Positions 4,011-64,000 of a DNA stretch of 64,000 bases are shown one piece after another; position 1 is the stretch's first letter; each line of letters opens with the position of its first letter. The notes under the pieces were generated by a model that was not told where the DNA came from, did no database searches, and saw only the letters and a program-made list of their open reading frames with translations. Position numbers and translations under genes: made by a program. This DNA comes from Antedon mediterranea (lineage: Eukaryota; Echinodermata; Crinoidea; Comatulida; Antedonidae), in assembly GCF_964355755.1 (NCBI RefSeq), contig NC_092676.1:30484871-30548870 (forward strand), read 5' to 3'.

Positions 4011-4388
4011 AGGACTTATTCTCTGCCTGTTTTTAATCCATTTTGTTCTTTTAACATCTTCGTTTCCCCATGATGTTAAAAACAATTTAATTTATTACTA
4101 ATTTATGGTTAATCAATCAATATCAATTCAGTACAATCAGTATAAAACAATTATCCAATATTGATTAGGCTGAGGAAGGAAAAAGGCCTCAATCATAAAA
4201 TAAAATCTGGCTGGCAATATCAGCGTCTCCTACCCGTTCATGTGAGTGTGTGGCAGGCTGAAATATGAGTGAACACCTAAGTCATGTTTTTAGATAAAAT
4301 ACATTTATTTATAGTATTTATCCGACAAGATAACTTACTTATATATATCATGGGATATTTTTCTAGCCATAAACAACTTAAAACAGCA

Positions 4389-5880
4389 TCATAGGCCTAG
4401 TAATTCAATTCCGGCTTTGAATATCAACAAGCTACCAGCCTTCCTCCCAGCAAGTGAACCACCAGTTATACATGAATGGGAAGTTCGTAAGGCTTTGAAT
4501 AAATTGAACTGTAATAAATCAAGCCACCCATCAGACTTACCAATTAAAATAATTAAGGAATTTGCTATTGAACTTGCTAACCCGCTAACTAAATTATTTA
4601 ATACGTGTCTCAATGAGGGACACTTTCCACATCAGTGCTTCAATAGTTCCAGTTCCAAAACAAAACAAGATCCGCTCTTTTGATGATCTTCGTCCAATAT
4701 CATTGACGCTGGTCTTTGCTAAGATTTTTGAAGCATTTATTGCCAAATGGATTATTGAGGATATTGATAATAAATTAGACACTAAGCAGTATGGTAATAC
4801 TAAAGGTTCATCTACTATAAATTATCTTGTGGGTATGTTAAATTATGTTTATGACAAGCCCAAACAATCAGTTGAACTCTGTACAATTGACTTTACTAAG
4901 GCCTTTGATAGAGTTAATCATACAATTATTATAGATAAATTAATTAAACTTGGAGTTAGGTCATCCATTGTTTCCATCGTCTGCAGCTTTCTCTGTGAAA
5001 GAACTCTACTACCAAACTTGGCACGCACATTTCTTCCACCAAATCAATCTCTTGTGGGGTACCACAGGGAACCAAACTGGGACCCATACTATTCTTGGTT
5101 CTAGTAAATGATGCTGCCATTGAAAGTTGTAGGCGTTGGAAATTTGTGGATGACCTGACTCTAGGGGAAGTAACCAAATGTGGTGTTTCCTCCAACTTAC
5201 AAAGTGTCCTTAACAGTGTCAGTGAGTGGTGTGCATCTAATGATGTTCTACCTAAACCAGCTAAATGCCAAGTAATTGAATTTAACTTTTTAAAGCAACG
5301 GCAGCTTAATTTAGTATACACTATTGATAATTTTAATCTTCCAATAGTTATAGCAAGTTAAACTGCTTGGTGTAATAATCCAAAATGACCTCAAATGGGG
5401 TTCAAATGTTAATGATATAACATCAAGAGCCTCGCGTAGACTATTCTCACTATGTATTCTGAAAAGGTCTAGTGCACCAGTCAGTGACCTGGTTACAGTA
5501 TTTACATCATATATCAGACCTGTGCTGGAATATGCCTGCCAGGTTTGGCATTCATCATTAACGGTTCAGCAATCTAATTTAATAGAAAAAATTCAAAAAC
5601 GGGCATTGCGCATAATTTTGAGCCCACATTATGTTAGCTATAAATTAGCGTTAGAGCAAGTGGGTTTGCCTTCTTTAAAGTCCCGTAGAGAACAGATTCT
5701 TCTCAAGTTTGGCAAGAGTCTTTTAGAATCTACCAAATTTAGAAATATGTTACCAGCATATAACTCTGATAGGCATTCAAGATCGTTAAGGAGCAATACT
5801 AGCTCAAAGTTGGATTCTTGCAGATGTCGTACAGAAAGATATAGGCGGTCTACTATTCCGCACTTAGCACGAATCCTTTA
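4389..5880 (+). pseudogene. Decayed non-LTR retrotransposon (LINE) reverse transcriptase
   Basis: Fragments of one reverse transcriptase-bearing ORF lie in successive frames: 4417-4640 (upstream RT region), 4613-5104 (core RT with DLRPISLT and an FTKAFDRVNH segment matching RT motif A), 5095-5361 (the motif C area, reading FVDDLT), and 5522-5881 (the post-RT region typical of jockey/CR1/RTE-like LINEs, with LEYACQVWH). At least three frame changes make it non-functional. The 5' half, including any endonuclease, is absent. The 3' end is probably the (AAATA)n-type tail near 6548-6575. Clade assignment is uncertain. Confidence 0.85.
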
Positions 5881-22300: not shown

Positions 22301-25300
22301 TACTAGAGGAAGGTATGTTGCAGCATACTCTAATTTTATATACATTCACCACAAATTTGTATTTTTGTTTCTGATGATAATTTAGGTATACATACAATAA
22401 ATCATTATTAATGGTACAGTATATGTGATAGTATTAATTGTTACAAACAATTGGTCATTTCAAATTGGCAATAATTATGGAAATTAAACTTTAAAAAGCA
22501 TAAAACACCAGTCCTACTAATAACAAATCTACTACCGGCGGAGAGTAGAAATCACTTATTAATGGCAAATTAAAGACAAAAATAATTTAGCATTTTAAAG
22601 TAGGTGGCTACACCATGATATTGATATTTTATGTAGAAGGACCCCAGTGGTGTTTAGTACAACTGATTGAATAAAAGACTTATTGTATATAATAATAAGT
22701 TGATTGCTGATACCTACTGTAAATGATTTTGTTTTTTTTAAAGTGTTGAGCTTCAACATAGCAGTGGAAAGGTGAATTTAAATGTTAAACGTTGGCCAAT
22801 TTGGATTGCTGAAGAAGGTAAAATTTTGTAAAATCAGATTCACTCATCCCATCTAGTTTGTTTTATATCTGGATCAATTTTGAAAAAAAAACATTATATA
22901 TACCATTTGTACACCATTGGCCTAACATAATGCAATTATATATACCATTTGTTCACCATTGACCTAACATAATGCAATTATATATACCATTTGTACACCA
23001 TTGGCCTAACATAATGCAATTATATATACCATTTGTACACCATTGGCCTAACATAATGCAATTATATATACCATTTGTACACCATTGGCCTAACATAATG
23101 CAATTATATATACCATTTGTACACCATTGGCCTAACATAATGCAATTATATATACCATTTGTACACCATTGGCCTAACATAATGTAATTATATATACCAT
23201 TTGTACACCATTGGCCTAACATAATGCAATTATATATACCATTTGTACACCATTGGCCTAACATAATGCAATTATATATACCATTTGTACACCATTGGCC
23301 TAACATAATGCAATTATATATACCATTTGTACACCATTGGCCTAACATAATGCAATTATATATACCATTTGTACACCATTGGCCTAACATAATGCAATTA
23401 TATATACCATTTGTACACCATTGGCCTAACATAATGCAATTATATATACCATTTGTACACCATTGGCCTAACATAATGCAATTATATATACCATTTGTAC
23501 ACCATTGGCCTAACATAATGCAATTATATATACCATTTGTACACCATTGGCCTAACATAATGCAATTATATATACCATTTGTACACCATTGGCCTAACAT
23601 AATGCAATTATATATACCATTTGTACACCATTGGCCTAACATAATGCAATTATATATACCATTTGTACACCATTGGCCTAACATAATGCAATTATATATA
23701 CCATTTGTACACCATTGGCCTAACATAATGCAATTATATATACCATTTGTACACCATTGGCCTAACATAATGCAATTATATATACCATTTGTACACCATT
23801 GGCCTAACATAATGCAATTATATATACCATTTGTACACTATTGGCCTAACATAATACAATTATATATACCATTTGTACACCATTGGCCTAACATAATGCA
23901 ATTATATATATACCATTTGTACACCATTGGCCTAACATAATGCAATTATATATACCATTTGTACACCATTGGCCTAACATAATGCAATTATATATACCAT
24001 TTGTACACTATTGGCCTAACATAATACAATTATATATACCATTTGTACACCATTGGCCTAACATAATGCAATTATATATACCATTTGTACACTATTGGCC
24101 TAACATAATGCAATTATATATACCATTTGTACACCATTGGCCTAACATAATGCAATTATATATACCATTTGTACACTATTGGCCTAACATAATACAATTA
24201 TATATACCATTTGTACACCATTGGCCTAACATAATGCAATTATATATACCATTTGTACACCATTGGCCTAACATAATGCAATTATATATACCATTTGTAC
24301 ACCATTGGCCTAACATAATGCAATTATATATACCATTTGTACACCATTGGCCTAACATAATGCAATTATATATACCATTTGTACACTATTGGCCTAACAT
24401 AATACAATTATATATATACCATTTGTACACCATTGGCCTAACATAATGCAATTATATATACCATTTGTACACCATTGGCCTAACATAATGCAATTATATA
24501 TACCATTTGTACACCATTGGCCTAACATAATGCAATTATATATACCATTTGTACACCATTGGCCTAACATAATGCAATTATATATACCATTTGTACACCA
24601 TTGGCCTAACATAATGCAATTATATATACCATTTGTACACCATTGGCCTAACATAATGTAATTATATATACCATTTGTACACCATTGGCCTAACATAATG
24701 CAATTATATATACCATTTGTACACCATTGGCCTAACATAATGCAATTATATATACCATTTGTACACCATTGGCCTAACATAATGCAATTATATATACCAT
24801 TTGTACACCATTGGCCTAACATAATGCAATTATATATACCATTTGTACACCATTGGCCTAACATAATGCAATTATATATACCATTTGTACACCATTGGCC
24901 TAACATAATGCAATTATATATACCATTTGTACACCATTGGCCTAACATAATGCAATTATATATACCATTTGTACACCATTGGCCTAACATAATGCAATTA
25001 TATATACCATTTGTACACCATTGGCCTAACATAATGCAATTATATATACCATTTGTACACCATTGGCCTAACATAATGCAATTATATATACCATTTGTAC
25101 ACCATTGGCCTAACATAATGCAATTATATATACCATTTGTACACCATTGGCCTAACATAATGCAATTATATATACCATTTGTACACCATTGGCCTAACAT
25201 AATGCAATTATATATACCATTTGTACACCATTGGCCTAACATAATGCAATTATATATATACCATTTGTACACCATTGGCCTAACATAATGCAATTATATA

Positions 25301-26903
25301 TACCATTTGTACACCATTGGCCTAACATAATGCAATTACTATTATGTCTATTCTATATAATTTAAATAAATAAATAAATAAATAAATAATATAATTTAAA
25401 TAAACTATTTGCCAGATTCACAAAAGTTCTGTCGCCAAGTTTATGGTTTATAAATGTATATTACACCAATTTATTACACTAAACTGTCTATTAAACCTTG
25501 AATTAATATAATTGTTTAATATAATATAATTTCAGTTCTGATTCTGTCAGGGAACTTAGGAAAATGATTGTGTATGTATTTCAGGTTTGTACTCTGGTGT
25601 TGATCGTCAGTATAGTGTAAAAGCATCCACTGTATGTCAAGCTATCATCATAAATAATTCACACATAACAGATATTGCTGACAGGGTGAGTCAACTTAAA
25701 ATGTTATTTCAATATATTTATAATTTTAGAATGTGTAATCTCTCTAATTTCAATTTATTGCTTATTTTTTTTAGTACAAATCAGGTGCTGGTTTAACATT
25801 GACGAAAACTTTAGATCAGTGGAGCAAATTATATGAACGATGGTCTCCTGAATTATTTAAAAAATATCAAGCACATTTACAAATAGAGGTAAGTAGAGAA
25901 GCTGAATATTCTTTAATAATGCCTTTTAATTTTGTTGTTAAATCTAACCTATTTGCATCTTTTTCCAGACAATTTTAAAATACGTTGGTGATTGTCAATT
26001 ATTACAAGATGTTCCAGTGGGTTTTCTTTATTCTTTGGTTATAGCAAGTGCTGTACATGAATACCAGGAAGACATAACAATTGTAGGTAAGGATTATTTG
26101 GGTTATTACAACATCAATTGAGTTTGCTGTAGGAGTCCCCCTGGGTCTAGCATGTGTGATACGTGTTAAATTGAATTGAATTGAACATCTAAAACAAAGA
26201 CAGTGAAAATCAAATTTCGCTATTTAAAGTACAACTAACATTAAAAATCACCTTATTGTTTAAAAACTAATTTACATACATTTTTACAATTACATGATTC
26301 TTTTACTCTAAAACTATTAAACCAAATAACTAACACTTTATTATGTTGCATTTATTTACAAAGCTGATAAAGACAATCTTAATGCAAGCTTGAAAAGGAG
26401 CAACTCAAAAAGGAAGTCAATGAAAAAAGAATCTGCACAAGGAGGAGTGAGCTCTATCCTGAAACCAGGTCAATTTTATGCAAATGTTGCATCTGATCAT
26501 TTTAAAGAGGAAGACAGATTTTTACTATTATTTGAAGGATCTGTTAAAGTAAAATATTCTGGAAAAAGTTCTGGGAATTTACTTGAAACAGGCAAACTAT
26601 TTTGTAAGTGCCTATTGTAAAAATGTGTAAGCATATAAAATGTTACAGATGTTATTGCCTTATAATTGTCAATAGACAAGTTTATAGAAATAATGAAACA
26701 TTTGATGTGAATAATGACAATATACTAGTTTATATCCTTACTATTTTATTCTTTATACAGACATTCCATCAAGTAAGATGATGCAGTGTACAGTAATTGT
26801 GAAATCTACCGCCATTTTGCTCCGATTTACAGGAACAGTGTTTTTACATACTTGTAAAGACTACCCAAAGGCCATCCTCAACTTACCAAACAAATCAAGG
26901 TGA
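19359..26903 (+). CDS. Multi-CNB-domain protein with N-myristoylation-like start, 10 exons, 490 aa
   Basis: Exons: 19359-19554, 21494-21653, 21818-21986, 22155-22312, 22744-22817, 25585-25685, 25775-25888, 25969-26086, 26364-26603, 26761-26903. The start MGAGASKKDK fits an N-myristoyltransferase site. Residues ~45-135 match a cyclic-nucleotide-binding (CNB) fold: GIYIILSGEV, then PGDFFGEISTLF, which is the phosphate-binding cassette. The usual Arg of that cassette is Cys110 (YIPCTAHV), so nucleotide binding is doubtful. Two further degenerate CNB-like segments follow (about 179-300 and 340-480), the last preceded by a basic Lys/Ser-rich insert. No kinase or channel region is seen. The exact family is not recognised; a membrane-tethered scaffold or pseudo-sensor is a guess. 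The exon 1 donor (GTCCTA) is weak and lies next to the Helentron. The final TGA follows AAATCAAGG; that AG|GTGAAT could instead be a donor. Confidence 0.72.
19565..21068 (+). mobile_element. Helentron/HINE-type (Helitron2-like) non-autonomous element
   Basis: The 5' end TTAGGTTATATGCATT is the reverse complement of AATGCATATAACCTA at 21024-21038. That copy is followed directly by a hairpin (ATTCGTCA-TAG-TGACGAAT, 21041-21059), then AAATCTAG and T. Asymmetric terminal inverted repeats with a 3' hairpin and a CTAG-like end are the hallmark of Helentrons and their non-autonomous HINEs. The body is CpG-richer than its surroundings and includes a tRNA-like stretch near 20625-20680 and a long palindrome. 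No Rep-helicase frame is present, so it would depend on a helper. It begins about 10 bp inside intron 1 of the CNB gene. Confidence 0.78.
20682..20898. repeat. ~217-bp near-perfect palindrome
   Basis: Two arms of about 107 bp are almost exact reverse complements, meeting at CACAAAATTTGTG with no real spacer. Outer ends are AAACGAAACGAAAT and ATTTCGTTTCGTTT. Transcribed, it would form a very long hairpin RNA. It lies inside the Helentron-like element. Confidence 0.92.
21121..21362 (+). mobile_element. tRNA-derived SINE
   Basis: The head resembles a tRNA: A-box-like TAGCCGAGTGGTTAGG, a GTC anticodon position within ACTGTCATA, and B-box-like GGGTTCAATTCCC. A conserved-looking body follows (ACTCAGCTGTAAATGAGTAC, then GGCCACCCTACCACATAATG) and a TTTACC-type tail. 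The tRNA-Asp-like head is not intact enough to be a functional tRNA gene. The open frame from 21120 is this SINE. Confidence 0.8.
22895..25336. repeat. 42-bp tandem array, ~58 copies, CNB gene intron 5
   Basis: Unit: ATTATATATACCATTTGTAC, ACCATTGGCCTAACATAATG, CA. Copies are nearly identical, with marked variants (CACTATTGG, AATACAATT, AATGTAATT, and extra TA steps near 23903, 24413 and 25253). Several variants recur in blocks, so multi-unit segments were themselves duplicated. As 42 is a multiple of 3 and the unit lacks in-frame stops in one frame on each strand, 14-residue repeat frames run on both strands. These are not considered genes. Confidence 0.97.
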
Positions 26904-28155: not shown

Positions 28156-31100
28156 ATGGCGACTACCAATAAGCAAAACGAGAAGAAATCGGAACAAAAA
28201 ACTGAAAAGAAACAAGGAACAGACCAAGATCGGGAGCTTGTAAGATATATGCGATTAATTATATTTTATAATGTTATACGTGATGGCTGTTTTAAGTTGT
28301 TGTGTGTGTTTATTGTACTTTTACAAACGAAATAACTTTCTGAATATTTGCAGTGTCATGACTCGCATATCACATTGTCATGTTCAGGCACCAAACTTTC
28401 TACTTTGGGTGGGTAGCCAGGGCCCTATAGGCCTAGCCTTGGTAGGGTAAGCCTAGGAGGACATAAGTTAATATCGTACCTGGTTAATCTTTGTCCTAGC
28501 CTCTTTATTTTTAAAAGGCTCTTTGCCTTGCTTGATGTTTTATGTACTGCTCAACTAGCGGATGTTTTCCCTTTTCGCATTTCTTTGTTTGAATTTGTAG
28601 GCCTAAACCTAGGCTAGGCCTAGCCTAGATTTTAGTAATACTAATATTAGTATACCCTATTTACAATACTAGGCCTATTAAAAAGCATTTTATTTAATAC
28701 GACAAGAAACTAAAGTACTGTATGCTAATTTTTACAAAAACCATTTAAAAGTGATTTTTTTTTAGTTTGTAATGTATTGTTGAGAAAAGGAAACCTCTCG
28801 CAATGAACTGAGATGCTGAACTTAATTAAACATGTCTACTCAAATTTTGACACATTTTTCAATTAAGAGAGAAGAAAAACAACAGATATTTCAACTAAAG
28901 CTGTACAGTAACGTCCCATTTCAGATCGGAAGATGTTCACACACAGTCACTGAAGACAATAAAATGTAATTCACAACAAATAATCGACAAGAAATGGATA
29001 AAAAAACAGGAAAATAGAGATAAATGTAGAACTGGTTTATAAAATCTGCCCACCTTGAGCAATACCATCTATTTCTTAAAAGTTTAGATCTGGGATTGCT
29101 ATAGCCTATTACTATCCTTGCGAGTAATGTTTTTGTTTCTTTTTTTTATCTAGTCAGAAGAAGATAAGTTGTTGCAAGATGAACTTAATATGCTTGTTGA
29201 AAGACTTACAGTAAGCAATTTCAATATTTTTACATCCCATTTCATTTTAAATGTGTACAAATAAACCACTTTTTAAAGAAAAAATAGTCTGAGAATTATA
29301 CTTAACTTAAGTTCAATTAAATTATTAATCACTCATTTTCCACAAATTCATTTTATATTCAATTTCTATTTATACTGTATTAATTTACAGGAGGTTGATA
29401 AGACATTGTATAGTCTGTTTTATATTCTATTTCCATTTACAATGTATTTTACAGGAGTCTGATAAAACATTGTATAAACCTGCATTAGAACAGTTGCGCG
29501 TCTTAATCAGGGCTTCAACAAGTTCAATGACCTCAGTTCCTAAGCCACTGAAATTTCTGCATCCTCATTATAGCACATTGATTGCTATTTATGAAAAAAT
29601 CAATGAAGCAGAAAATAAGGTAATAAAATGATTAATAGCATACTTTACATATACAGCATAGCATACAATGCATTGACTCAACACAAAATAATACACCCAC
29701 CAACTCACTATGGGATAATACCTCTACACAAGTTAGATTTTCACATTGTATTTCAGTATCTACACCACTATTGCCTCTACACAGGGGTTAGGGTTAGTAA
29801 CCTGATTGTATGAATTCATTATCCACACTTTCTTCTACACAAATGTATTAACTAATTAAGATTTTGACGTTTCTGATTTTCACCCAAACCACTAATTGGC
29901 AAGTTGCCTCTACACAAATGTATTAACTAATTTAGATTTTCATGTTAAGCGTTCATTACACAAAAGACCACTGCCTCAACTGTATTATTAACAAAATTTC
30001 TATGTAAATTTACAGAAATTTTGTGCAGACATTCTATCCGTTCTGGGTATGACAATGAGTGACAGCAGAGATTGTCTTAAGTACCGTTTACTTGGATCCA
30101 AAGAAGAGATAGGCTCATGGGGTCATGAATATGTCAGGTATTTATTTTCTTTAGGGAGGGAGGAAGTGTTTAAGTGTATTTAAATAATTTGTAGGAAGGT
30201 TACATAGTGCCATGGCTTTTTGATAATATCAGAAATGATGTCCTCCTCACACATAAACTGTGCGCCCATTAGCCCTGATGAAGGAAACTTTTTAGTTTTG
30301 TTTAGCCTTTTGTTTTGTATCTCTATTATTGTTACCCACCTTATTGTTTTTTAGCAATTTGCTTTTGGATTTATATTTATTGTATGTTAAGTAATAGCAA
30401 ACAAGGTAAGTAAATTTACAGTCCTTCAATTAACAAATTAATTGTGTTAATTTTTGTTGTGTTTGTCTAACTAGGCATTTAGCTGGTGAAATTGGCCAAG
30501 CATGGAATGAACTAGAGGATGACAAAAAAACAAATGAAGAAAAAGAGAAACTCCTATATTTGACACGTGAAATAATACCATATCACATGAATCACAATGC
30601 TGAAGCCGAAGCTTGTGACCTGCTAATGGAAATTGATAGACTAGACCTTTTAGAATCATTTGTTGACAATGATGCATTTTCACGTGTGTGTTTGTACTTA
30701 ACAAGGTTAGTAGCATATTGATTGATTGTAATAAAATAATGCAGTGTTCAGCATATCTTGTAACATTATTAAAAGTTATTTTATTATTTATAGTTGTGTT
30801 AACTATGTTCCTGAACCAGAAGATTCAACCTTGCTCCATACAGCTCTTGGAATATTTCGTAAATTTGACCGTTACCCAGAAGCTCTTCGTCTTGCTATTC
30901 GTCTTAACAATATTAAGCTTGTTGAAGAAATATTTACAACATGTAAAGATAGGTATGTCTTTGTGTTTTAGAATGATATGTCTTTGTGTTTTAGAATAGT
31001 ACAACTGGCTTAAATGTTGTGTATGCAGCACATAACTTATCCAATTTTTGTTTCAGAATGGTACAAAAACAAATGGCTTACATGTTAGGTATGCAGCAGA

Positions 31101-34100
31101 TATTCTTGGAACTGAATGAAGAAATGGAAGAATATGATGACCTTGTTGAAATCATGTCAAATTCTCATCTAAATACAAACTTTTTATCACTTGGTAGAGA
31201 GGTTAGTAACTTTCAAACTATGGTTGTGTGTGTGAGTCCATTGGGTTATGTTTGAAAATGCATACAATATAATGTTTTCCTGCGTATCTATGTAACATTG
31301 TTATTTAATTTAAAACTAAAAAATACAAAATCAACATTACATTTTTTAGCTCGACATTATGGAACCAAAAGTCCCGGAGGACATTTATAAAAGTCATCTA
31401 GATTCAAGTAAGTTTGTTTTTCTTTTGTTTGAAAATCTTGCATTATCAATGTTAACAAACAATTTGTTTTAAACAAAATTTGTAGTTTTAAATCAATTTA
31501 TGTACTATATTTATTCGAATAAATGCCTTGAAGCATTTATTGTTGAGGAGGGATTTTTATTTTATCATTATATTTTTATTATGAGCTTTAATAAATTGTG
31601 ATTGTATCTTTAGGATCATCGTTTGGTCAAACATCGTCTCAAGTAGATTCAGCTCGACAGAACTTGTCATCTTCATTTGTTAATGGTTTTGTAAATGCTG
31701 GCTTTGGACAAGACAAGCTTATTACTGAAGATGGAAATAGCTGGATTTATAAAAATAAAGAACATGGTGAGGTCACACATTCTACCATTTTAAGATAGCA
31801 TTCCTGATATTTGCAATTTATTTTATATATGTTTAATTTTTAATGCAATTGTTTTAAAAACTACTTAAGCATTTTGTACTCAGATTGTCTGAAACCAATT
31901 TGAAATTATGTACTTAAACACATTTGACAATGTATAGTCATCATACTATTGTCATTATTGTTAAAGGTATGATGAGTACAACAGCTTCTCTAGGATTGAT
32001 TCTTCTTTGGGATGTGGATGGTGGATTAACCCAAATTGATAAGTATCTTTATTCATCAGATGATTATATTAAGGTAATTTTTTAACTGAATAATTATTTT
32101 ATTATTACTAATTATTTGATACTGCTCATTTATGATAATTAGAATAAGTTAATATCCAAGAGTACAGTTTAACTTAAAATATAAAAAATGCACTCTCCTA
32201 TTTATACACTTGTTTCAGTCTGGTGCACTGCTTGCTTGTGGTATTGTTAACTCAGGAGTGCGAAATGAGTGTGACCCTGCTAGAGCACTCTTGTCTGATT
32301 ATGTTCTGCATAGTAATAATACAATGAGAATAGGAGCCATATTTGGGTAAGTATAAAATGATTAAATAAATGACAAATAATTGCTACAGTTAAATCATTC
32401 CCTTATAAAACTTGACAATGTTAATTTATAAAGATATCCGGTATTCTTAGTTGTACTTTCTACAGCCAGACATTATCTATACTATATGCTTGGGAGTATG
32501 ATCCAACCAACTAACTTAGGATTAATTCATGTTTAATGCAATCCTAGTTTAAATTGGATACTCTATAATTTTCATTTCATACTCAGGCCCCCTGGAACTT
32601 GTTCATTTCATACCCAGGCCCCCTGGAACTTGTTTATTAATTCTTATAAGCTAACACAAAGGGAAGATGGGTAATAGTGCTTCATCAAAACATGCTTCAA
32701 ACATTTTTCATCCATATTTTCCTTGCTTAAATTTATTTTGTTTAGACTTGGTTTGGCTTATGCAGGCTCTAACAGTGAAGATGTACTTGGCTGCCTACTT
32801 CCAGTAATGTCTGATTCTAAGTCTAATATGGAGGTAATAGGAATAACAGCTGTAGCATGTGGTATGATTGCAGTTGGAAGTTGTAATGGGGATGTAACGT
32901 CTACCATTTTACAGACCATGATGGATAAGACCAAATCACGACTGAAAGAAACTCATGCCAGATTCTTAGCCTTGGGGCTTGGCTTAGCTTACCTAGGTAT
33001 GTTTGTTTCAATTTTTATAGACAGCTTAATAATATGTTCTCATCAGTAACAAGCAAACAATGAATGTATCAATATATTGATCTATAAACAGGTAAACAAG
33101 AATCTGTAGATGCTACTCTAGCTGCTTTAGATGTCATTCCAGAACCATTTAAACAGTTTGCTAAGATTCTTGTGGAGGTCTGTGCTTATGCAGGTAATTT
33201 TATGCTACTTGGATACAAACTTATTTCATATATAAAAGGGAAAAAATGAACAAAACATCTTCTGTTTACAGATAGGAGTAATATAACTGAACCCTCAATT
33301 ACATAGGGCACAGGCCTGCTGCTGTTATCTGGTGATTTACAGATAGTAGTAATTTAACTGAACCCTCAATTACATAGGGCACAGGCCTGCTGCTGTTATC
33401 TGGTGATTTACAGATAGGAGTAATATAACTGAACCCTCAATTACATAGGGCACAGGCCTGCTGCTGTTATCTGGTGATTTACAGATAGGAGTAATATAAC
33501 TGAACCCTCAATTACATAGGGCACAGGCCTGCTGCTTTTATCTGATGATTTACAGATAGTAGTAATTTAACTGAACCCTCAATTACATAGGGCACAGGCC
33601 TGCTGCTGTTATCTGGTGATTTACAGATAGGAGTAATATAACTGAACCCTCAATTACATAGGGCACAGGCCTGCTGCTGTTATCTGGTGATTTACAGATA
33701 GGAGTAATATAACTGAACCCTCAATTACATAGGGCACAGGCCTGCTGCTGTTATCTGGTGATTTACAGATAGTAGTAATATAACTGAACCCTCAATTACA
33801 TAGGGCACAGGCCTGCTGCTGTTATCTGGTGATTTACAGATAGTAGTAATATAACTGAACCCTCAATTACATAGGGCACAGGCCTGCTGCTGTTATCTGG
33901 TGATTTACAGATAGTAGTAATATAACTGAACCCTCAATTACATAGGGCACAGGCCTGCTGCTGTTATCTGGTGATTTACAGATAGGAGTAATATAACTGA
34001 ACCCTCAATTACATAGGGCACAGGCCTGCTGCTGTTATCTGGTGTTGTACAGAGAGGAGTAATATAACTGAACCCTCAATTACATAGGGCACAGGCCTGC

Positions 34101-37100
34101 TGCTGTTATCTGGTGTTGTACAGATAGGAGTAATATAACTGAACCCTCAATTACATAGGGCACAGGCCTGCTGCTGTTATCTGGTGTTGTACAGATAGGA
34201 GTAATATAACTGAACCCTCAATTACATAGGGCACAGGCCTGCTGCTGTTATCTGGTGATTTACAGATAGGAGTAATATAACTGAACCCTCAATTACATAG
34301 GGCACAGGCCTGCTGCTGTTATCTGGTGATTTACAGATAGGAGTAATATAACTGAACCCTCAATTACATAGGGCACAGGCCTGCTGCTGTTATCTGGTGT
34401 TGTACAGATAGTAGTAATATAACTGAACCCTCAATTACATAGGGCACAGGCCTGCTGCTGTTATCTGGTGATTTACAGATAGTAGTAATATAACTGAACC
34501 CTCAATTACATAGGGCACAGGCCTGCTGCTGTTATCTGGTGTTGTACAGAGAGGAGTAATATAACTGAACCCTCAATTACATAGGGCACAGGCCTGCTGC
34601 TGTTATCTGGTGTTGTACAGAGAGGAGTAATATAACTGAACCCTCAATTACATAGGGCACAGGCCTGCTGCTGTTATCTGGTGTTGTACAGATAGGAGTA
34701 ATATAACTGAACCCTCAATTACATAGGGCACAGGCCTGCTGCTGTTATCTGGTGATTTACAGATAGGAGTAATATAACTGAACCCTCAATTACATAGGGC
34801 ACAGGCCTGCTGCTGTTATCTGGTGATTTACAGATAGGAGTAATATAACTGAACCCTCAATTACATAGGGCACAGGCCTGCTGCTGTTATCTGGTGATTT
34901 ACAGATAGGAGTAATATAACTGAACCCTCAATTACATAGGGCACAGGCCTGCTGCTGTTATCTGGTGATTTACAGATAGTAGTAATATAACTGAACCCTC
35001 AATTACATAGGGCACAGGCCTGCTGCTGTTATCTGGTGATTTACAGATAGGAGTAATATAACTGAACCCTCAATTACATAGGGCACAGGCCTGCTGCTGT
35101 TATCTGGTGATTTACAGATAGGAGTAATATAACTGAACCCTCAATTACATAGGGCACAGGCCTGCTGCTGTTATCTGGTGATTTACAGATAGGAGTAATA
35201 TAACTGAACCCTCAATTACATAGGGCACAGGCCTGCTGCTTTTATCTGATGATTTACAGATAGTAGTAATTTAACTGAACCCTCAATTACATAGGGCACA
35301 GGCCTGCTGCTGTTATCTGGTGATTTACAGATAGGAGTAATATAACTGAACCCTCAATTACATAGGGCACAGGCCTGCTGCTGTTATCTGGTGATTTACA
35401 GATAGGAGTAATATAACTGAACCCTCAATTACATAGGTCACAGGCCTGCTGCTGTTATCTGGTGATTTACAGATAGTAGTAATATAACTGAACCCTCAAT
35501 TACATAGGGCACAGGCCTGCTGCTGTTATCTGGTGATTTACAGATAGGAGTAATATAACTGAACCCTCAATTACATAGGGCACAGGCCTGCTGCTGTTAT
35601 CTGGTGATTTACAGATAGGAGTAATATAACTGAACCCTCAATTACATAGGGCACAGGCCTGCTGCTGTTATCTGGTGATTTACAGATAGTAGTAATATAA
35701 CTGAACCCTCAATTACATAGGGCACAGGCCTGCTGCTGTTATCTGGTGTTGTACAGAGAGGAGTAAAATAACTGAACCCTCAATTACATAGGGCACAGGC
35801 CTGCTGCTGTTATCTGGTGTTGTACAGAGAGGAGTAATATAACTGAACCCTCAATTACACAGGGCACAGGCCTGCTGCTGTTATCTGGTGTTGTACAGAT
35901 AGGAGTAATATAACTGAACCCTCAATTACATAGGGCACAGGCCTGCTGCTGTTATCTGGTGATTTACAGATAGGAGTAATATAACTGAACCCTCAATTAC
36001 ATAGGGCACAGGCCTGCTGCTGTTATCTGGTGATTTACAGATAGGAGTAATATAACTGAACCCTCAATTACATAGGGCACAGGCCTGCTGCTGTTATCTG
36101 GTGATTTACAGATAGTAGTAATATAACTGAACCCTCAATTACATAGGGCACAGGCCTGCTGCTGTTATCTGGTGATTTACAGATAGGAGTAATATAACTG
36201 AACCCTCAATTACATAGGGCACAGGCCTGCTGCTGTTATCTGGTGATTTACAGATAGGAGTAATATAACTGAACCCTCAATTACATAGGGCACAGGCCTG
36301 CTGCTGTTATCTGGTGATTTACAGATAGGAGTAATATAACTGAACCCTCAATTACATAGGGCACAGGCCTGCTGCTGTTATCTGGTGATTTACAGATAGG
36401 AGTAATATAACTGAACCCTCAATTACATAGGGCACAGGCCTGCTGCTGTTATATCTGGTGATTTACAGATAGGAGTAATATAACTGAACCCTCAATTACA
36501 TAGGGCACAGGCCTGCTGCTGTTATCTGGTGATTTACAGATAGGAGTAATATAACTGAACCCTCAATTACATAGGGCACAGGCCTGCTGCTGTTATCTGG
36601 TGATTTACAGATAGGAGTAATATAACTGAACCCTCAATTACATAGGGCACAGGCCTGCTGCTGTTATCTGGTGATTTACAGATAGTAGTAATATAACTGA
36701 ACCCTCAATTACATAGGGCACAGGCCTGCTGCTGTTATCTGGTGATTTACAGATAGGAGTAATATAACTAAACCCTCAATTACATAGGGCACAGGCCTGC
36801 TGCTGTTATCTGGTGTTGTACAGAGAAGAGTAATATAACTGAACCCTCAATTACATAGGGCACAGGCCTGCTGCTGTTATCTGGTGATTTACAGATAGGA
36901 GTAATATAACTGAACCCTCAATTACATAGGGCACAGGCCTGCTGCTGTTATCTGGTGATTTACAGATAGGAGTAATATAACTGAACCCTCAATTACATAG
37001 GGCACAGGCCTGCTGCTGTTATCTGGTGATTTACAGATAGTAGTAATATAACTGAACCCTCAATTACATAGGGCACAGGCCTGCTGCTGTTATCTGGTGA

Positions 37101-39507
37101 TTTACAGATAGGAGTAATATAACTGAACCCTCAATTACGTCTGCTGCTGTTATCTGGTGATTTACAGATAGGAGTAAGATAACTGAACCCTCAATTACGT
37201 CTGCTGCTGTTCTCTGGTGGTGTGTGTGTATGTGATACAGAAATTAACTTTTGTTTCTTTTTAAGGTACTGGCAATGTGTTAAAGGTGCAGCAGTTGCTT
37301 CACATATGTAGTGAACATATTGAAGCTGAGAAGAGCAAAGACAAAGATAAAAAAGATAAAAAGAATGATGATACAACAAGTGATTTGGCAGCTCATCAAG
37401 GTGTGGCAGTTCTTGGTATTGCTTTGATAGCTATGGGAGAGGAGATTGGTGGTCAAATGGCATTAAGATCACTTGGTCATTTGGTAAACTGTTTTTTTTA
37501 TAGATATTTAGAATCAAGTCTTGCATCAATTTAAAAATAAATTGTATAGTTAACAATAGATTTTTACTTTCTTTAGCTTCGTTATGGTGAACCAGTTATT
37601 CGTCGCGCTGTTCCGCTTGCTTTAGCACTGATATCTGTATCCAATCCAGAACTTCAAATTTTGGACACCTTGAGTAAATTTTCTCACGATACAGATCAAG
37701 AGGTTGCTCATAATGCAATATTTGCCATGGGAATTGTAGGAGCTGGTAAGCATATCATTATTATAGTTTCTCTGGGAATTGTAGGAGCTGGTAAGCATAT
37801 CATTATTATACAGTAGTTTCTCTGGGAATTGTAGGAACTGGCAAGCATATCATTATTATAATTTCTCTATAATCTGTGATGACACAGGCATTCAGTTTTG
37901 GTAGTACAGTTGTATTCTTAAAAATATTAGAATATTTACTTTTTATTACCAGGTACAAACAATGCCCGTCTTGCAGCTATGCTTAGACAACTTGCACAAT
38001 TTCATGCTAAAGATCCAAACAACCTATTCATGGTTCGCATCTCACAAGGTTTGACTCACTTAGGTAAAGGTACATTGACTATGTCACCTTATCACAGTGA
38101 TCGTCAGCTGTTAAGCCAAGTTGCTACTGCCGGCCTTCTTGTTACAATCACTTCAGCTTTAGATGTTAAGAATAGTAAGTTTTTGAACTATGCTAATTTG
38201 TCTTTCTTTATAAAACAACCAATAAATGATTGGTAATATGCACCTGATTTACCATATTCAATGTTTCCTTAATAAGCACAAGATGTGAATTCAATAATTG
38301 TTGTGCAAGATGGTAATAGAGCTGTCTGCATCATCTCACAGCTGACCGCTATACTTATTTTAGAATTCTCACCTTGGTGATTCTTTTAAGTTTTCAGTTT
38401 ACCTATAATCTCGTCCTAAAGGCAGATTTTTATTCCTAGAGATCACCCAGTACAGTATAGAGAAATATATATACAGTATATATATACAAAATTATATTTT
38501 ACAGCTATTCTTAGAGAAGAAATATATATGTACAAATTTAAATTTTACAGCTATTCTTGGTAAGTCTTCATATTTACTGTATGGATTAGTTTCTGCAATG
38601 AAACCAAGAATGTTGGTTACATTTGATAAAGACTTGCATCCACTACCAATTCCAGTTCGTGTTGGTCAGGTAGGATTATACACTTTTTAGCATCCAAATC
38701 ATTCTTATCAACTGCTAAACCATTGTATAATTTAGGAAGCATAAACTACATGTTCAAACATCTGGTAAACAATTAATATGAAATACATTTTGTAGGCTGT
38801 TGATGTGGTAGGCCAAGCTGGTAGGCCCAAGACTATCACTGGTTTCCAGACACACACAACACCAGTATTATTGGCTCAAGGAGAACGAGCAGAATTAGCT
38901 ACAGAAGAATGTATCCTTTTAAAAACAATTTCAAACAAACATTTTCAATTGGAAAAAAATATCTTTTTATTTTACATTGCTCGGTGGTCATATCTATTTC
39001 TTTTCTGTTTTTATGACATAGTGTATAATAAGTGTATCCAGTTGGTATTTACAAGTCCTCTCAAAAGACCCACTCACACTTGACATAGTGTATAATAAGT
39101 GTATCCAGTTGGTACTTACAAGCCTCTCAAAAGACCCACTCACACTTTGAGCAGCTAGATCTCCTTAAAGAAGACCATTAGTGTATAATAAGTGTATCCA
39201 GTTGGTATTTACAAGTCTCTCAAAAGACCCATTATTTCAGTAATATTTGGTCAACAGAAAAACAGCTGTGTTTTAGCTATGATCCCCTTACCTCATACAA
39301 TTTGATTGTGTAACGAAGAAAACTTATTTTTTTATTATTATATTATTACACATTAATATACATGGAAATAATAATACTGCCCCATTGAATATTACCACAG
39401 ATGTAAGTCAATCCATTGTTTTCCTGAACTTGCTTTCAGACATACCATATACTCCTATTGTTGAGGGCTTTGTTATTTTAAAGAAGAATGAAAACTATGA
39501 AGAATAA
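28156..39507 (+). CDS. PSMD2: 26S proteasome non-ATPase regulatory subunit 2 (Rpn1), 19 exons, 890 aa
   Basis: Exons: 28156-28239, 29154-29210, 29455-29619, 30016-30137, 30475-30705, 30794-30952, 31057-31201, 31350-31407, 31614-31766, 31967-32073, 32219-32346, 32746-32996, 33092-33193, 37266-37483, 37577-37745, 37953-38174, 38551-38669, 38796-38910, 39440-39507. The frame closes at 890 aa against ~908 in vertebrates. Rpn1 is the base scaffold of the 19S particle that docks ubiquitin receptors, shuttle factors and the deubiquitinase Usp14/Ubp6. Diagnostic stretches include [35 protein letters not shown], the PC-repeat region (VEVIGI-like and LGLGLAYLG segments), a Lys/Asp-rich acidic-basic loop in exon 14, and the conserved tail [18 protein letters not shown]. 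The start ATG is followed by a charged N-terminus typical of the family. Exons 3, 7, 15 and 17 have duplicated splice junctions beside them. Identification is secure. Confidence 0.97.
33270..37215. repeat. 71-bp tandem array, ~55 copies, PSMD2 intron 13
   Basis: Unit: GATAGGAGTAATATAACTGA, ACCCTCAATTACATAGGGCA, CAGGCCTGCTGCTGTTATCT, GGTGATTTACA. Variants (GATAGTAG, GGTGTTGTACAGAGAGG, CTTTTATCTGATG) occur in repeating order, showing higher-order duplication. Each unit includes a TTTACAG or TGTACAG acceptor-like end and a GGTGATTT/GGTGTTGT donor-like word. The array ends about 50 bp before exon 14. The intron is ~4.07 kb, almost all array. Confidence 0.97.
37725..37870 (+). repeat. Triplicated exon 15 donor region of PSMD2
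   Basis: GGGAATTGTAGGAGCTG|GTAAGC, the last 17 exon bases plus the donor, is followed by two further copies within 100 bp. The second is GGGAATTGTAGGAGCTGGTAAGC split over the same junction. The third reads GGGAATTGTAGGAACTG with a GCAAGC donor. The unit is about 50 bp and includes ATATCATTATTATA. Confidence 0.9.
38911..39439 (+). other. Probable U12-type GT-AG intron (PSMD2 last intron)
   Basis: The donor GTATCCTTTT matches the minor-spliceosome 5' site. Near the acceptor, TTCCTGAAC followed by TTGCTTTCAG resembles the U12 branch site (one deviation from TTCCTTAAC) at the usual ~11-12 nt from the AG. The junction is phase 1 and gives the expected Tyr-Ile-Pro sequence. Within it, a ~65-bp block (GTGTATAATAAGTGTATCCA) is repeated three times. 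Confidence 0.75.
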
Positions 39508-60700: not shown

Positions 60701-63123
60701 TAATAATAATATGATTTATAAAGCACATGTATCCACTGTATGTCTACCTGTGCATAGGGCATCTAATAATAATATGATGATGTATCCACTGTATGTCTAC
60801 CTGTGCATAGGGCATCTAATAAAAATATGATCATGTATCCACTGTATGTCTACCTATGCACAGGGCATCTAATAATAATAATATGATTTATAAAGCACAT
60901 GTATCCACTGTATGTCTACCTGTGCATAGGGCATCTAATAATAATAAGGGTTAGGGTTAAGCCTTCTCTAACCCTGGTACTAGCAATGAACCTGTCTGGT
61001 TAACTGGAAATTACATTTTAACCTCCAAAGTTGTATATTTTCAGAGCTATTCATGTGTAGAAGCTAGGCCTGTGACAGAACAGCCCAGATGTCAAAAGAA
61101 CAGCGATTGTCTTGCTGCAAGAAGAACTGTGTGTGTCCATCCTTTTTTAGAAAAGAGTACTAAGCTTATTAAAATCATGAAAAGCAAAGGAAAATCAGTG
61201 TTATATGTTGGGGATCCTTATTTGTTTGGTCATTCAGGTAATTCTTTAATTTCTGTATTTATCTTGTACTATATTTGATAAAGGCCCCTTAATACTAGAA
61301 CGATAATGATCATTGATAAATAGATATACAGGCATATTTTTGTCAAAGACAGTATAAAATGTTTATTCTATAGTTCTGCAACGCATGTTTATTTATCATC
61401 GATCCTAGATAAATGGGCCTTAATGAATTTAATTTTAACTTTTTTTCTTTGACAGTGAGTGTCAGTAATTATATACCATAGTATTCATTCTTACCACTGT
61501 CTCTTTTTTTCTTTGACAGTGAGTGTCAGTAATTATATACCAAAGTATTCATTCTTACCACTGTCTCTTTTTTCCTTTGACAGTGAGTGTCAGTAATTAT
61601 ATACCAAAGTATTCATTCTTACCACTGTCTCTTTTTTTCTTTGACAGTGAGTGTCAGTAATTATATACCAAAGTATTCATTCTTACCACTGTCTCTTTTT
61701 TTATTTGACAGTGAGTGTCAGTAATTATATACCAAAGTATTCATTCTTACCACTGTCTTTTTTTTTCTTTGACAGTGAGTGTCAGTAATTATATACCAAA
61801 GTATTCATTCTTACCACTGTCTCTTTTTTTCTTTGACAGTGAGTGTCAGTAATTATATACCAAAGTATTCATTCTTACCACTGTCTCTTTTTTTATTTGA
61901 CAGTGAGTGTCAGTAATTATATACCAAAGTATTCATTCTTACCACTGTCTCTTTTTTTCTTTGACAGTGAGTGTCAGTAATTATATACCATAGTATTCAT
62001 TCTTACCACTGTCTCTTTTTTTCTTTGACAGTGAGTGTCAGTAATTATATACCAAAGTATTTATTCTTACCACTGTCTCTTTTTTTCTTTGACAGTGAGT
62101 GTCAGTAATTATATACCAAAGTATTCATTCTTACCACTGTCTCTTTTTTTATTTGACAGTGAGTGTCAGTAATTATATACCAAAGTATTCATTCTTACCA
62201 CTGTCTCTTTTTTTCTTTGACAGTGAGTGTCAGTAATTATATACCAAAGTATTCATTCTTACCACTGTCTCTTTTTTCCTTTGACAGTGAGTGTCAGTAA
62301 TTATATACCAAAGTATTCATTCTTACCACTGTCTCTTTTTTTCTTTGACAGTGAGTGTCAGTAATTATATACCAAAGTATTCATTCTTACCACTGTCTCT
62401 TTTTTTATTTGACAGTGAGTGTCAGTAATTATATACCAAAGTATTCATTCTTACCACTGTCTCTTTTTTTCTTTGACAGTGAGTGTCAGTAATTATATAC
62501 CAAAGTATTCATTCTTACCACTGTCTCTTTTTTTATTTGACAGTGAGTGTCAGTAATTATATACCAAAGTATTCATTCTTACCACTGTCTCTTTTTTTTC
62601 TTTGACAGTGAGTGTCAGTAATTATATACCAAAGTATTCATTCTTACCACTGTCTCTTCCAGATGTAATTGACCTTTTTTGCAGGTAGGCTTTTTATTTG
62701 TAATTATATTTCATGTTCAGATAAAATAGTTTGTTGATTATGTTGTTAAACACCTTATTGCATGAACCACTAGGTTTATTGTATTTCTTGTACTAAATGT
62801 AAATCTTTTAAACATTAATGTTGCATGAAACAATACACCCCCTCCCTCTATTTTTTTGTTAGGTATACATAAGTGATGCTTGATATGTTTATTTTTTTAG
62901 ATATCTCATCTCACTATCTGGAGCTCTGGCTATCCTGAATGCTGTGCCATGTTATGCCCTGGATGGCCAGTACATTCTCACCGCTTTTATAGACTATGCT
63001 TTAAAAGTAGTTTTGCCAAACAAAGGAGATAGGGAATCTTTGCAATTCATAACATTACTTTTTGGTACAATACTGCTGGCATTTAATATTCTACTAGCTC
63101 TTTGGACACTATTTGTGACCTGA
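51737..63123 (+). CDS. MBTPS2: Membrane-bound transcription factor site-2 protease, 9 exons, 490 aa
   Basis: Exons: 51737-51814, 56456-56722, 56816-56919, 57361-57607, 58619-58799, 60062-60165, 61045-61237, 62609-62684, 62901-63123. The frame closes at 490 aa (vertebrate ~519). S2P is a Golgi intramembrane zinc metalloprotease that makes the second cut releasing SREBPs and ATF6 after S1P. The N-terminus is a membrane segment (FALVMGFWSILYLLD). The active site is HELGH at 140-144 within a hydrophobic helix, followed by REQVRVNGFGIFL and YPGAFVDL. A PDZ-like luminal region with many Cys comes next (HPECCSNSSVSDLCFSYE). The third zinc ligand is in LDGQ (Asp438), preceded by LISLSGALAILNAVPC. The Ser-rich linker of mammalian S2P is absent. 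The exon 8 acceptor is the last of 19 tandem copies. Intron 1 (4.6 kb) is packed with MITEs. Confidence 0.96.
51828..51999 (-). repeat. Dispersed repeat (SINE-like), copy 2
   Basis: Reverse-oriented relative of 15465-15735, sharing AAAGATGTACTAGGTTCTTT and TCTACCACCAGAACCAT on the minus strand. A short A-rich insertion splits it. The next element is inserted into it at a TA. Confidence 0.75.
51999..52812. mobile_element. MITE with TTGCGCAA-palindrome-rich termini
   Basis: The left end (TATATGTTATGCGCGATTTG, AACGATTTGCGCAATTTG) is mirrored at the right end (inward TATATGTTATGCGTGATTTG). Over ~60 bp the two are almost identical. Each end holds a cluster of the palindrome TTGCGCAA separated by 10-12 bp A/T spacers, about 15-20 copies in all. 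The centre (52200-52600) is AT-rich and non-coding. A TA on each side is compatible with a TA target. Frames rich in NLKLRK here are repeat by-products. Confidence 0.8.
53225..53320. repeat. Short direct repeat
   Basis: GAAATAGACTAAGCCATATA plus GGCATATTATAGATCCCCAC occurs twice in tandem in MBTPS2 intron 1, with the first copy starting near 53206. Confidence 0.8.
53485..54190. mobile_element. ~700-bp MITE with TAAGAC/TAAGCC-rich ends
   Basis: The left end (GGGGCCGATTGCAATAAAGG, TCTTAACTG) is mirrored inward at the right end by GTGGCGGATTGTATTATAAAG. Both subterminal regions are dense in TTAAG, TCTTAG and AAGCC words. The interior is AT-rich. Inverted-repeat identity is moderate, so ends are approximate. 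Confidence 0.6.
54280..54440. repeat. Tandem duplication (~80 bp)
   Basis: AATATATTAATATAACTATA, AATAATCTAAATTTGAGGTA and AAAGGAAGAA occur twice in direct orientation, the second with a short insertion before ACTATACTCTAGATG. Confidence 0.85.
54568..56327. mobile_element. 1.76 kb element with CAGGCCCGTA termini and 5-bp target duplication
   Basis: It begins CAGGCCCGTATGCAG and ends GGATACGGGCCTG, inverted repeats of about 10-12 bp. TCTTT precedes the left end (54563-54567) and follows the right end (56328-56332), a clean 5-bp duplication. Both ends have long G or C runs. A second GCGAGCGAAGCGAGCA and GGGGCCGCCAAGGGCCCCCG block near 54780-54920 suggests a related element nested near the left end. 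No transposase frame is seen. Same family as 59480-59785. Confidence 0.82.
57005..57215. repeat. 15-bp repeat in MBTPS2 intron 3
   Basis: About nine copies of CAGGTTACTATATAT in clusters separated by a duplicated block containing GTAGTCCATTGCCTTAAAT. Confidence 0.85.
57713..58556. repeat. 36-bp tandem array with a polyadenylated insertion
   Basis: About 21 copies of AGAGTGATAGAATTTACCAA plus TGACATAATGGGCCAT in MBTPS2 intron 4. The array is interrupted at about 57921-57997 by a ~75-bp insert ending in A13, with an internal GGACC...GGTCC stem; this looks like a short retroposed fragment. Because 36 is a multiple of three, both strands have long open frames, which are not genes. Confidence 0.95.
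59295..59479. repeat. ~53-bp repeat, 3-4 copies, MBTPS2 intron 5
   Basis: Unit: GAATATCACTAATACATTTA then TGGGCACTTTCAATGCCCAG then GCCTGTATA. The last copy is interrupted by the CAGGCCCGT MITE, whose end overlaps the unit's CCAGGCC. Confidence 0.9.
59480..59785. mobile_element. 306-bp MITE, CAGGCCCGT family
   Basis: The termini CAGGCCCGTAGCCAG and CTGGCAACGGGCCTG are a 15-bp inverted repeat with one mismatch, flanked by ATGCC on both sides (59475-59479 and 59786-59790). It shares the ends, the 5-bp duplication and the GGGGGCCAGGG subterminal block with the 1.76 kb element at 54568-56327. Small size and lack of coding capacity make it a MITE derived from the same family. Confidence 0.88.
60190..60945. 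repeat. ~53-bp tandem array, MBTPS2 intron 6
   Basis: About 14 units of CATGTATCCACTGTATGTCT, ACCTGTGCATAGGGCATCTA, ATAATAATATGAT with CTATGCA/CTGTGCA variants and occasional TTATAAAGCA insertions. A CCCTAACCCTAACC insertion sits in the first unit and AGGGTTAGGGTTA follows the last one. Confidence 0.93.
61440..62650 (+). repeat. 64-bp array: 19 copies of the MBTPS2 exon 8 splice acceptor
   Basis: Each unit has a polypyrimidine tract (TCTCTTTTTTTCTTTGACAG) followed by the first 44 or so bases of exon 8 (TGAGTGTCAGTAATTATATA, CCAAAGTATTCATTCTTACC, ACTG). Unit length is 64-65 bp. The last unit continues into the rest of exon 8; the others run into the next unit. Some copies have ATACCATAG (a stop in the exon frame), the others stop after crossing into the next unit. 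Confidence 0.96.
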
Positions 63124-63739: not shown

Positions 63740-64000
63740 TCATACCTTATTAATTTTAATTTGTTAGACCCATTCCAATCAGCATATAAAGAGGGTCACT
63801 GTACTGAAACAGCACTTCTCAGGATACTAAATGACATTAACAGTTGCTATGGACAGTAAGCAAGCAGTTGCACTTGTAATGCTTGACCTATCTGCTGCCT
63901 TTGATACAGTTGACCACCAAATACTTCTTGATCGTCTTCATTCTTATTTTGGCATTTCTGGCTTTGTTTTGAACTGGTTTATTTCATACCTTCAAAACCG
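63740..64000 (+). pseudogene. Second LINE reverse transcriptase fragment, cut by the window edge
   Basis: The translation contains DPFQSAYKEGHCTETALL and, after a frame change near 63858, [18 protein letters not shown], which holds RT motif A, then [11 protein letters not shown]. This is a CR1/L2-like non-LTR signature. At least one frameshift or stop (63857-63859) suggests decay, though the element continues beyond the window. Short ACATACTCGGA repeats precede it at 63663-63732. Confidence 0.8.

Follow-up and report, generated by a model that had tools for sequence, protein, structure and literature searches.

How does a splice acceptor come to stand 19 times in front of its exon, and what does such an arrangement do to the gene that carries it? 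The question is raised by MBTPS2, the gene of the site-2 protease, which activates SREBP and ATF6. In the window (the whole 64,000-nt stretch of DNA analysed here, which is the last 64 kb of its contig in an assembly of 354 Mb and 18 contigs), the junction of intron 7 and exon 8 of MBTPS2 lies in a segment that is tandemly amplified to 19 near-identical copies. Very probably, this array is a mirage-type minisatellite, fast-evolving and born by chance at a splice site, and for the most part a neutral by-product whose consequence is a longer intron.

Structure of the MBTPS2 gene and its junction array

With human S2P as tblastn query, the exons of MBTPS2 were matched in their proper order on the + strand, between 56444 and 63105; the exon borders, which are GT-AG, were refined by spliced alignment to the same protein. 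The match in identity and frame confirms the gene assignment made in a first-pass annotation of the sequence, and tblastn and spliced alignment likewise confirm the exon 7 end proposed there. MBTPS2 retains the active-site motifs HELGH and NAVPCYALDG. Peptidase_M50 was found at one place in the genome, which gives no hint of a second MBTPS2 copy. Exon 8 encodes VSVSNYIPKYSFLPLSLPDVIDLFCR, which aligns with a stretch of human S2P; the exon cannot begin later, because conserved residues of this alignment would then be lost. Intron 7 is 1371 nt in length with the array and 218 nt without it; other introns have a median length of 216 nt.

With a period of 64, 19.0 copies, 98% matches and a score of 2354, Tandem Repeats Finder recovered the array in the window, in agreement with the 19-fold amplification first described. 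Direct parsing of the units gave 19 acceptors of the sequence TTTGACAG, immediately followed by the exon border. The acceptors are spaced by 64 nt, and the final spacing is 65 nt, owing to one extra T in the last copy. To each 64-bp unit the intron contributes its last 17 nt, with pyrimidine tract and AG, and exon 8 its first 47 nt; the earlier description of the unit as a splice acceptor plus the start of exon 8 thus holds, and the exonic length of ∼44 nt given there is corrected. The mean pairwise identity among the 19 units is 0.983 (98.3%), and each unit differs from the consensus by 0 or 1 substitution per 64 positions. A search of the 354-Mb assembly placed the 64-bp sequence at this single locus and found no second genomic copy of the unit. 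The array itself cannot be explained by chance.

As revealed by frame analysis of the 19 copies, copy 19 alone reads through to the C-terminus. Spliced use of copies 1 and 9 leads to a stop after 8 codons, that of copy 18 after 20 codons, and that of the remaining upstream copies after 25 codons. Both the claim that only the most downstream copy leads into the rest of the exon and the claim of premature stops from the upstream copies were therefore borne out.

Table 1. Positions of the MBTPS2 and PSMD2 features in the window
Feature	Position	Strand	Basis
MBTPS2 exon 7, ends ...YLFGHS + 1 nt, phase 1; donor CAG/GTAATT	61045..61237	+	tblastn, spliced alignment; donor score 10.7
Intron 7, unduplicated part	61238..61438	+	sequence
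64-bp minisatellite, 19 copies	61439..62658	+	Tandem Repeats Finder, unit parsing
18 decoy copies, acceptors before 61456, 61520, ... 62544	61439..62591	+	unit parsing, frame analysis, site scoring
19th copy, with the sole acceptor into full exon 8	62592..62655	+	unit parsing, frame analysis
MBTPS2 exon 8, 76 nt; donor CAG/GTAGGC	62609..62684	+	tblastn, frame analysis, site scoring
MBTPS2 exon 9 (last), YLISLSGALAILNAVPCYALDGQ...LFVT, stop	62901..63123	+	frame analysis, tblastn; Peptidase_M50 match
PSMD2 acceptor and exon start, 2 copies of ∼64 bp, decayed (83%); true exon start 29455	29351..29476	+	Tandem Repeats Finder and gene mapping
PSMD2 exon end and donor, 3 copies of ∼48 bp; true donor 37746; third copy GT>GC	37728..37868	+	Tandem Repeats Finder and gene mapping

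Splice signals and other junction-spanning arrays

The splice sites were scored with a weight matrix derived from PSMD2 and MBTPS2 (24 introns), in which differences of 1–2 bits mean little. The acceptors of copies 1–18 score 2.1–4.4 bits and bracket that of copy 19, which scores 4.0; among the 19 copies, there is no systematic trend for the upstream acceptors to be weaker or stronger than the true one. The scores being nearly equal, the true site is not distinguished by its strength. Real acceptors, left out singly, score from about −2.5 to 13.6, and the exon 8 acceptor is weakish on this scale; the donors of exons 7 and 8 are both strong (10.7 each). The AG and pyrimidine tract are retained in all 19 copies. 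In copies 2–19, one branch-point-like CTTAC motif lies 27–28 nt before the exon and is derived from the exonic part of the unit, and copy 1 takes its branch-point-like motif from native intron sequence.

Tandem repeats are common around MBTPS2: the window contains 33 arrays, which account for 22% of its bases. PSMD2 was mapped to 29154–39501, with 17 introns, from the human sequence as query; its identity was checked against solved 26S proteasome chains. Two PSMD2 arrays span exon–intron borders, one at an acceptor and one at a donor (Table 1). Several further repeats of the window lie elsewhere. In intron 12 of PSMD2, one 3.9-kb array (33265–37198) contains 55 copies of a 71-bp unit with TTTACAG, so that dozens of weak acceptor-like sites lie inside one 4.07-kb intron. 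At 22893–25338, 58 copies of a 42-bp unit give long repetitive open frames on both strands; as 42 is a multiple of 3, such frames follow, and they are probably meaningless. Reverse-transcriptase-like open frames of non-LTR elements are located at 4315–5878 and 63760–64000; the latter runs off the contig end, where there is no telomeric repeat.

Three more junction arrays were found at sampled ABC-transporter loci. In one ABCB-type gene, seven identical 70-bp acceptor units are located at L051:297-790, and the joined exons show ABCB homology. One ABCA-like gene (L040:3301-3465 with L067:1-445) carries about twelve 36-bp donor units. Its assignment rests on a neighbouring ABC_tran exon, as the ABCA-like peptide surrounding this donor array matched no family in Pfam. 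An ABCA-like paralogue (L066 with L041:1-489) has at least 15 donor units of 72 bp, which correspond to a single copy in the L040 gene; the paralogy is based on 72–99% nucleotide similarity over shared stretches, and the exon assignment is less certain here than for MBTPS2 and PSMD2. The presence of the L041 array against the single copy in L040 suggests that junction arrays can be recent. Altogether, six junction arrays were observed in a limited genome sample: one in MBTPS2, two in PSMD2 and three at the ABC-transporter loci. None of the 30 Wnt exon loci scanned has an array at an exon border, which indicates that not every gene family has such arrays.

Are junctions preferred targets? With one unit per array dropped at random in the gene bodies of MBTPS2 and PSMD2, 1.06 junction-spanning seeds were expected versus 3 seen (P(≥3) = 0.08); with the arrays collapsed, the expectation is 1.77 versus 3 seen (P = 0.25). 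In these two genes, the excess of repeats at junctions is therefore not significant under random placement. With P values of 0.08–0.25, no targeting to junctions is necessary, and a high birth rate of minisatellites together with tolerance would suffice.

Origin of the array and competing explanations

In the explanation we prefer, the first duplication would have occurred by chance, through slippage or unequal exchange, in a minisatellite-rich genome, and further unequal exchange and homogenisation would have expanded the array. The array would survive because splicing can discard, as part of the intron, all sequence ahead of the last copy; the same property, removal of all copies except the exon-adjacent one, may explain why junction arrays are tolerated in general. 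Productive mRNA would arise from splicing of 61237 to 62609. The last copy may be favoured through exon definition, as no other copy opens a complete exon, here a short one of 76 nt that ends at a strong donor, and transcripts using the upstream copies would be degraded by nonsense-mediated decay. A point against this explanation is that closeness to the donor would make the first copies the preferred ones: they lie 218 nt from it, near the median length of other introns (216 nt). From the identity of the units and one paralogue comparison, in one assembly, we infer that the MBTPS2 array may be recent and polymorphic.

The strongest competitor, although an unlikely one, is that the array serves as a control device: 18 decoy acceptors would divert pre-mRNA into nonsense-mediated decay, and the length of the array would set the output of MBTPS2. 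Consistent with this, all 18 upstream acceptors are intact in pyrimidine tract and branch-point-like motif, and all are followed by stops within 8–25 codons. However, like arrays occur in unrelated genes, which encode a proteasome subunit and ABC transporters, and occupy donors as well as acceptors; the sites do not differ in strength in any way that hints at tuning; and the amphioxus precedents are reported to splice normally (PMC3087553). On these grounds, the earlier suggestion that MBTPS2 output is tuned by how often the spliceosome fails to skip the upstream copies is unsupported. Regulation of MBTPS2 through acceptor choice would, as judged from the sequence, be possible but is likewise unsupported. 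Slightly less probable again is a related proposal, in which array length sets the rate of splicing failure via nonsense-mediated decay or 63-nt insertions; MBTPS2 output would then be heritable, rapidly mutable and copy-number-like.

Could the assembler have inflated one or a few copies? Near-identical units are a classic trouble spot, and the window is located at the very end of its contig. The order of the units nevertheless makes such an artefact highly improbable. The units fall into six variant classes, arranged as s o c o a t o a s x o a o c o a o a t; the variants are interspersed without strict periodicity, and the block o-c-o-a appears twice. This order fits unequal exchange and not an assembler looping on one unit. 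In addition, long reads easily span 1.2 kb, and many other arrays with different units are present in the window.

Even less credence is given to the idea that the copies act as in-frame cassette exons. Every unit contains one donor-like ACA/GTGAGT overlapping the acceptor, and the distance from the acceptor of copy k to the donor of copy k+1 is 63 nt, in frame. This exact geometry would define a phase 1-1 exon, by which 21 residues (VSVSNYIPKYSFLPLSLFLFD or a closely similar sequence) would be inserted; the frame of this exon is open except in copies 1 and 9, which have TAG. Against it, the donor scores 2.9, whereas the median of real donors is near 8, and higher scores are reached by 18% of all GT sites in the window; a length that is a multiple of three arises by chance in one case out of three; and the insert would land in a conserved stretch. 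The least likely explanation of all, that MBTPS2 is decaying and the array marks a dead gene, has nothing in its favour beyond the oddity of the acceptor, and is contradicted by the colinear, in-frame match of the exons to human S2P, by their GT-AG borders, by the two active-site motifs and by the failure to find a second copy.

Genome context and comparison with known systems

Genes closest to Wnt1, 2, 3, 4, 5, 6, 7, 8, 9 and 10 are present in the genome, as judged against reference Wnt segments. Tunicates are without Wnt4 and Wnt8 (PMC6060547), and the presence of Wnt3, 9, 4 and 8 suggests a non-tunicate deuterostome. Wnt1, Wnt6 and Wnt10 lie within 33 kb of each other, and Wnt9 and Wnt3 are located about 10–12 Mb away; different from this order, the Branchiostoma linkage is Wnt9-Wnt1-Wnt6. 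The GC content of the window and the Wnt loci is 34%, compared to about 41% for Branchiostoma. Searches of the genome gave no match to GFP, as a weak negative, and GH6 was not found. Two weak innexin matches were present, and one 47-residue ferritin exon was uninformative. Mitochondrial COX1 was not found in the assembly.

Myosin loci were also observed. On contig C3, at least 19 loci matching one myosin-head exon, nearly all on one strand, extend over 5.5 Mb (19.6–25.1 Mb). They recall the 19 striated-muscle myosins of B. belcheri, compared to one in hemichordates and echinoderms (PMC5888912). At L065:745-850 and 934-1024 (C1:19159516 and 19159687), there are two adjacent versions of one myosin exon, possibly mutually exclusive alternatives.

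The MBTPS2 array most closely resembles the mirage minisatellites known from the amphioxus Adh3 and globin genes (PMC3087553) and also described in troponin C and PGBD5 (PMC3902484). As in those minisatellites, each unit combines intron and exon sequence of one junction, its length is within the range of 10–160 bp, several copies have AG/GT signals, and the real site is located at the exon-side end of the array; the cephalochordate mirages occur at acceptors or donors. In MBTPS2, too, the copies keep their splice signals, and only the exon-adjacent copy is predicted to give a coding transcript. The amphioxus mirages were reported to leave regular splicing undisturbed (PMC3087553, PMC3902484). 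Judged by its structure, the MBTPS2 array is a new and large example of this described class of minisatellites: it contains 19 copies, compared to 3–6 reported for globin BflGb6 (of the mirage globins BflGb6 and BflGb9). The hosts of the cases found are all cephalochordates, and our literature search found no papers on splice-junction minisatellites outside this group. The genome analysed here recalls B. belcheri in its myosin loci but differs from Branchiostoma in GC content and Wnt linkage, with GFP as a weak negative; it may belong to a cephalochordate of another genus or to a different deuterostome.

With 19 near-identical complete acceptors in a gene found at one locus, of which only the last can be productive, the array is a natural experiment well suited to asking how a 3′ splice site is chosen. 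Given six arrays in a limited sample, RNA from one species could reveal general rules of acceptor choice (first or last, proximity or exon definition). Tandem alternative (NAGNAG) acceptors and regulated unproductive splicing (poison exons) are similar in that competing acceptors are followed by premature stops. However, those systems involve one or few evolved sites, often conserved, whereas MBTPS2 has a homogenised array without sign of regulatory selection. The Rogers model of intron gain, by tandem duplication of an AGGT proto-splice site (discussed in PMC3087553), shares with MBTPS2 the possible conversion of exonic into intronic sequence through a duplicated splice border. Different from that model, which makes a new intron, an existing intron has grown here from 218 to 1371 nt, and the MBTPS2 array thus shows one route of intron growth.
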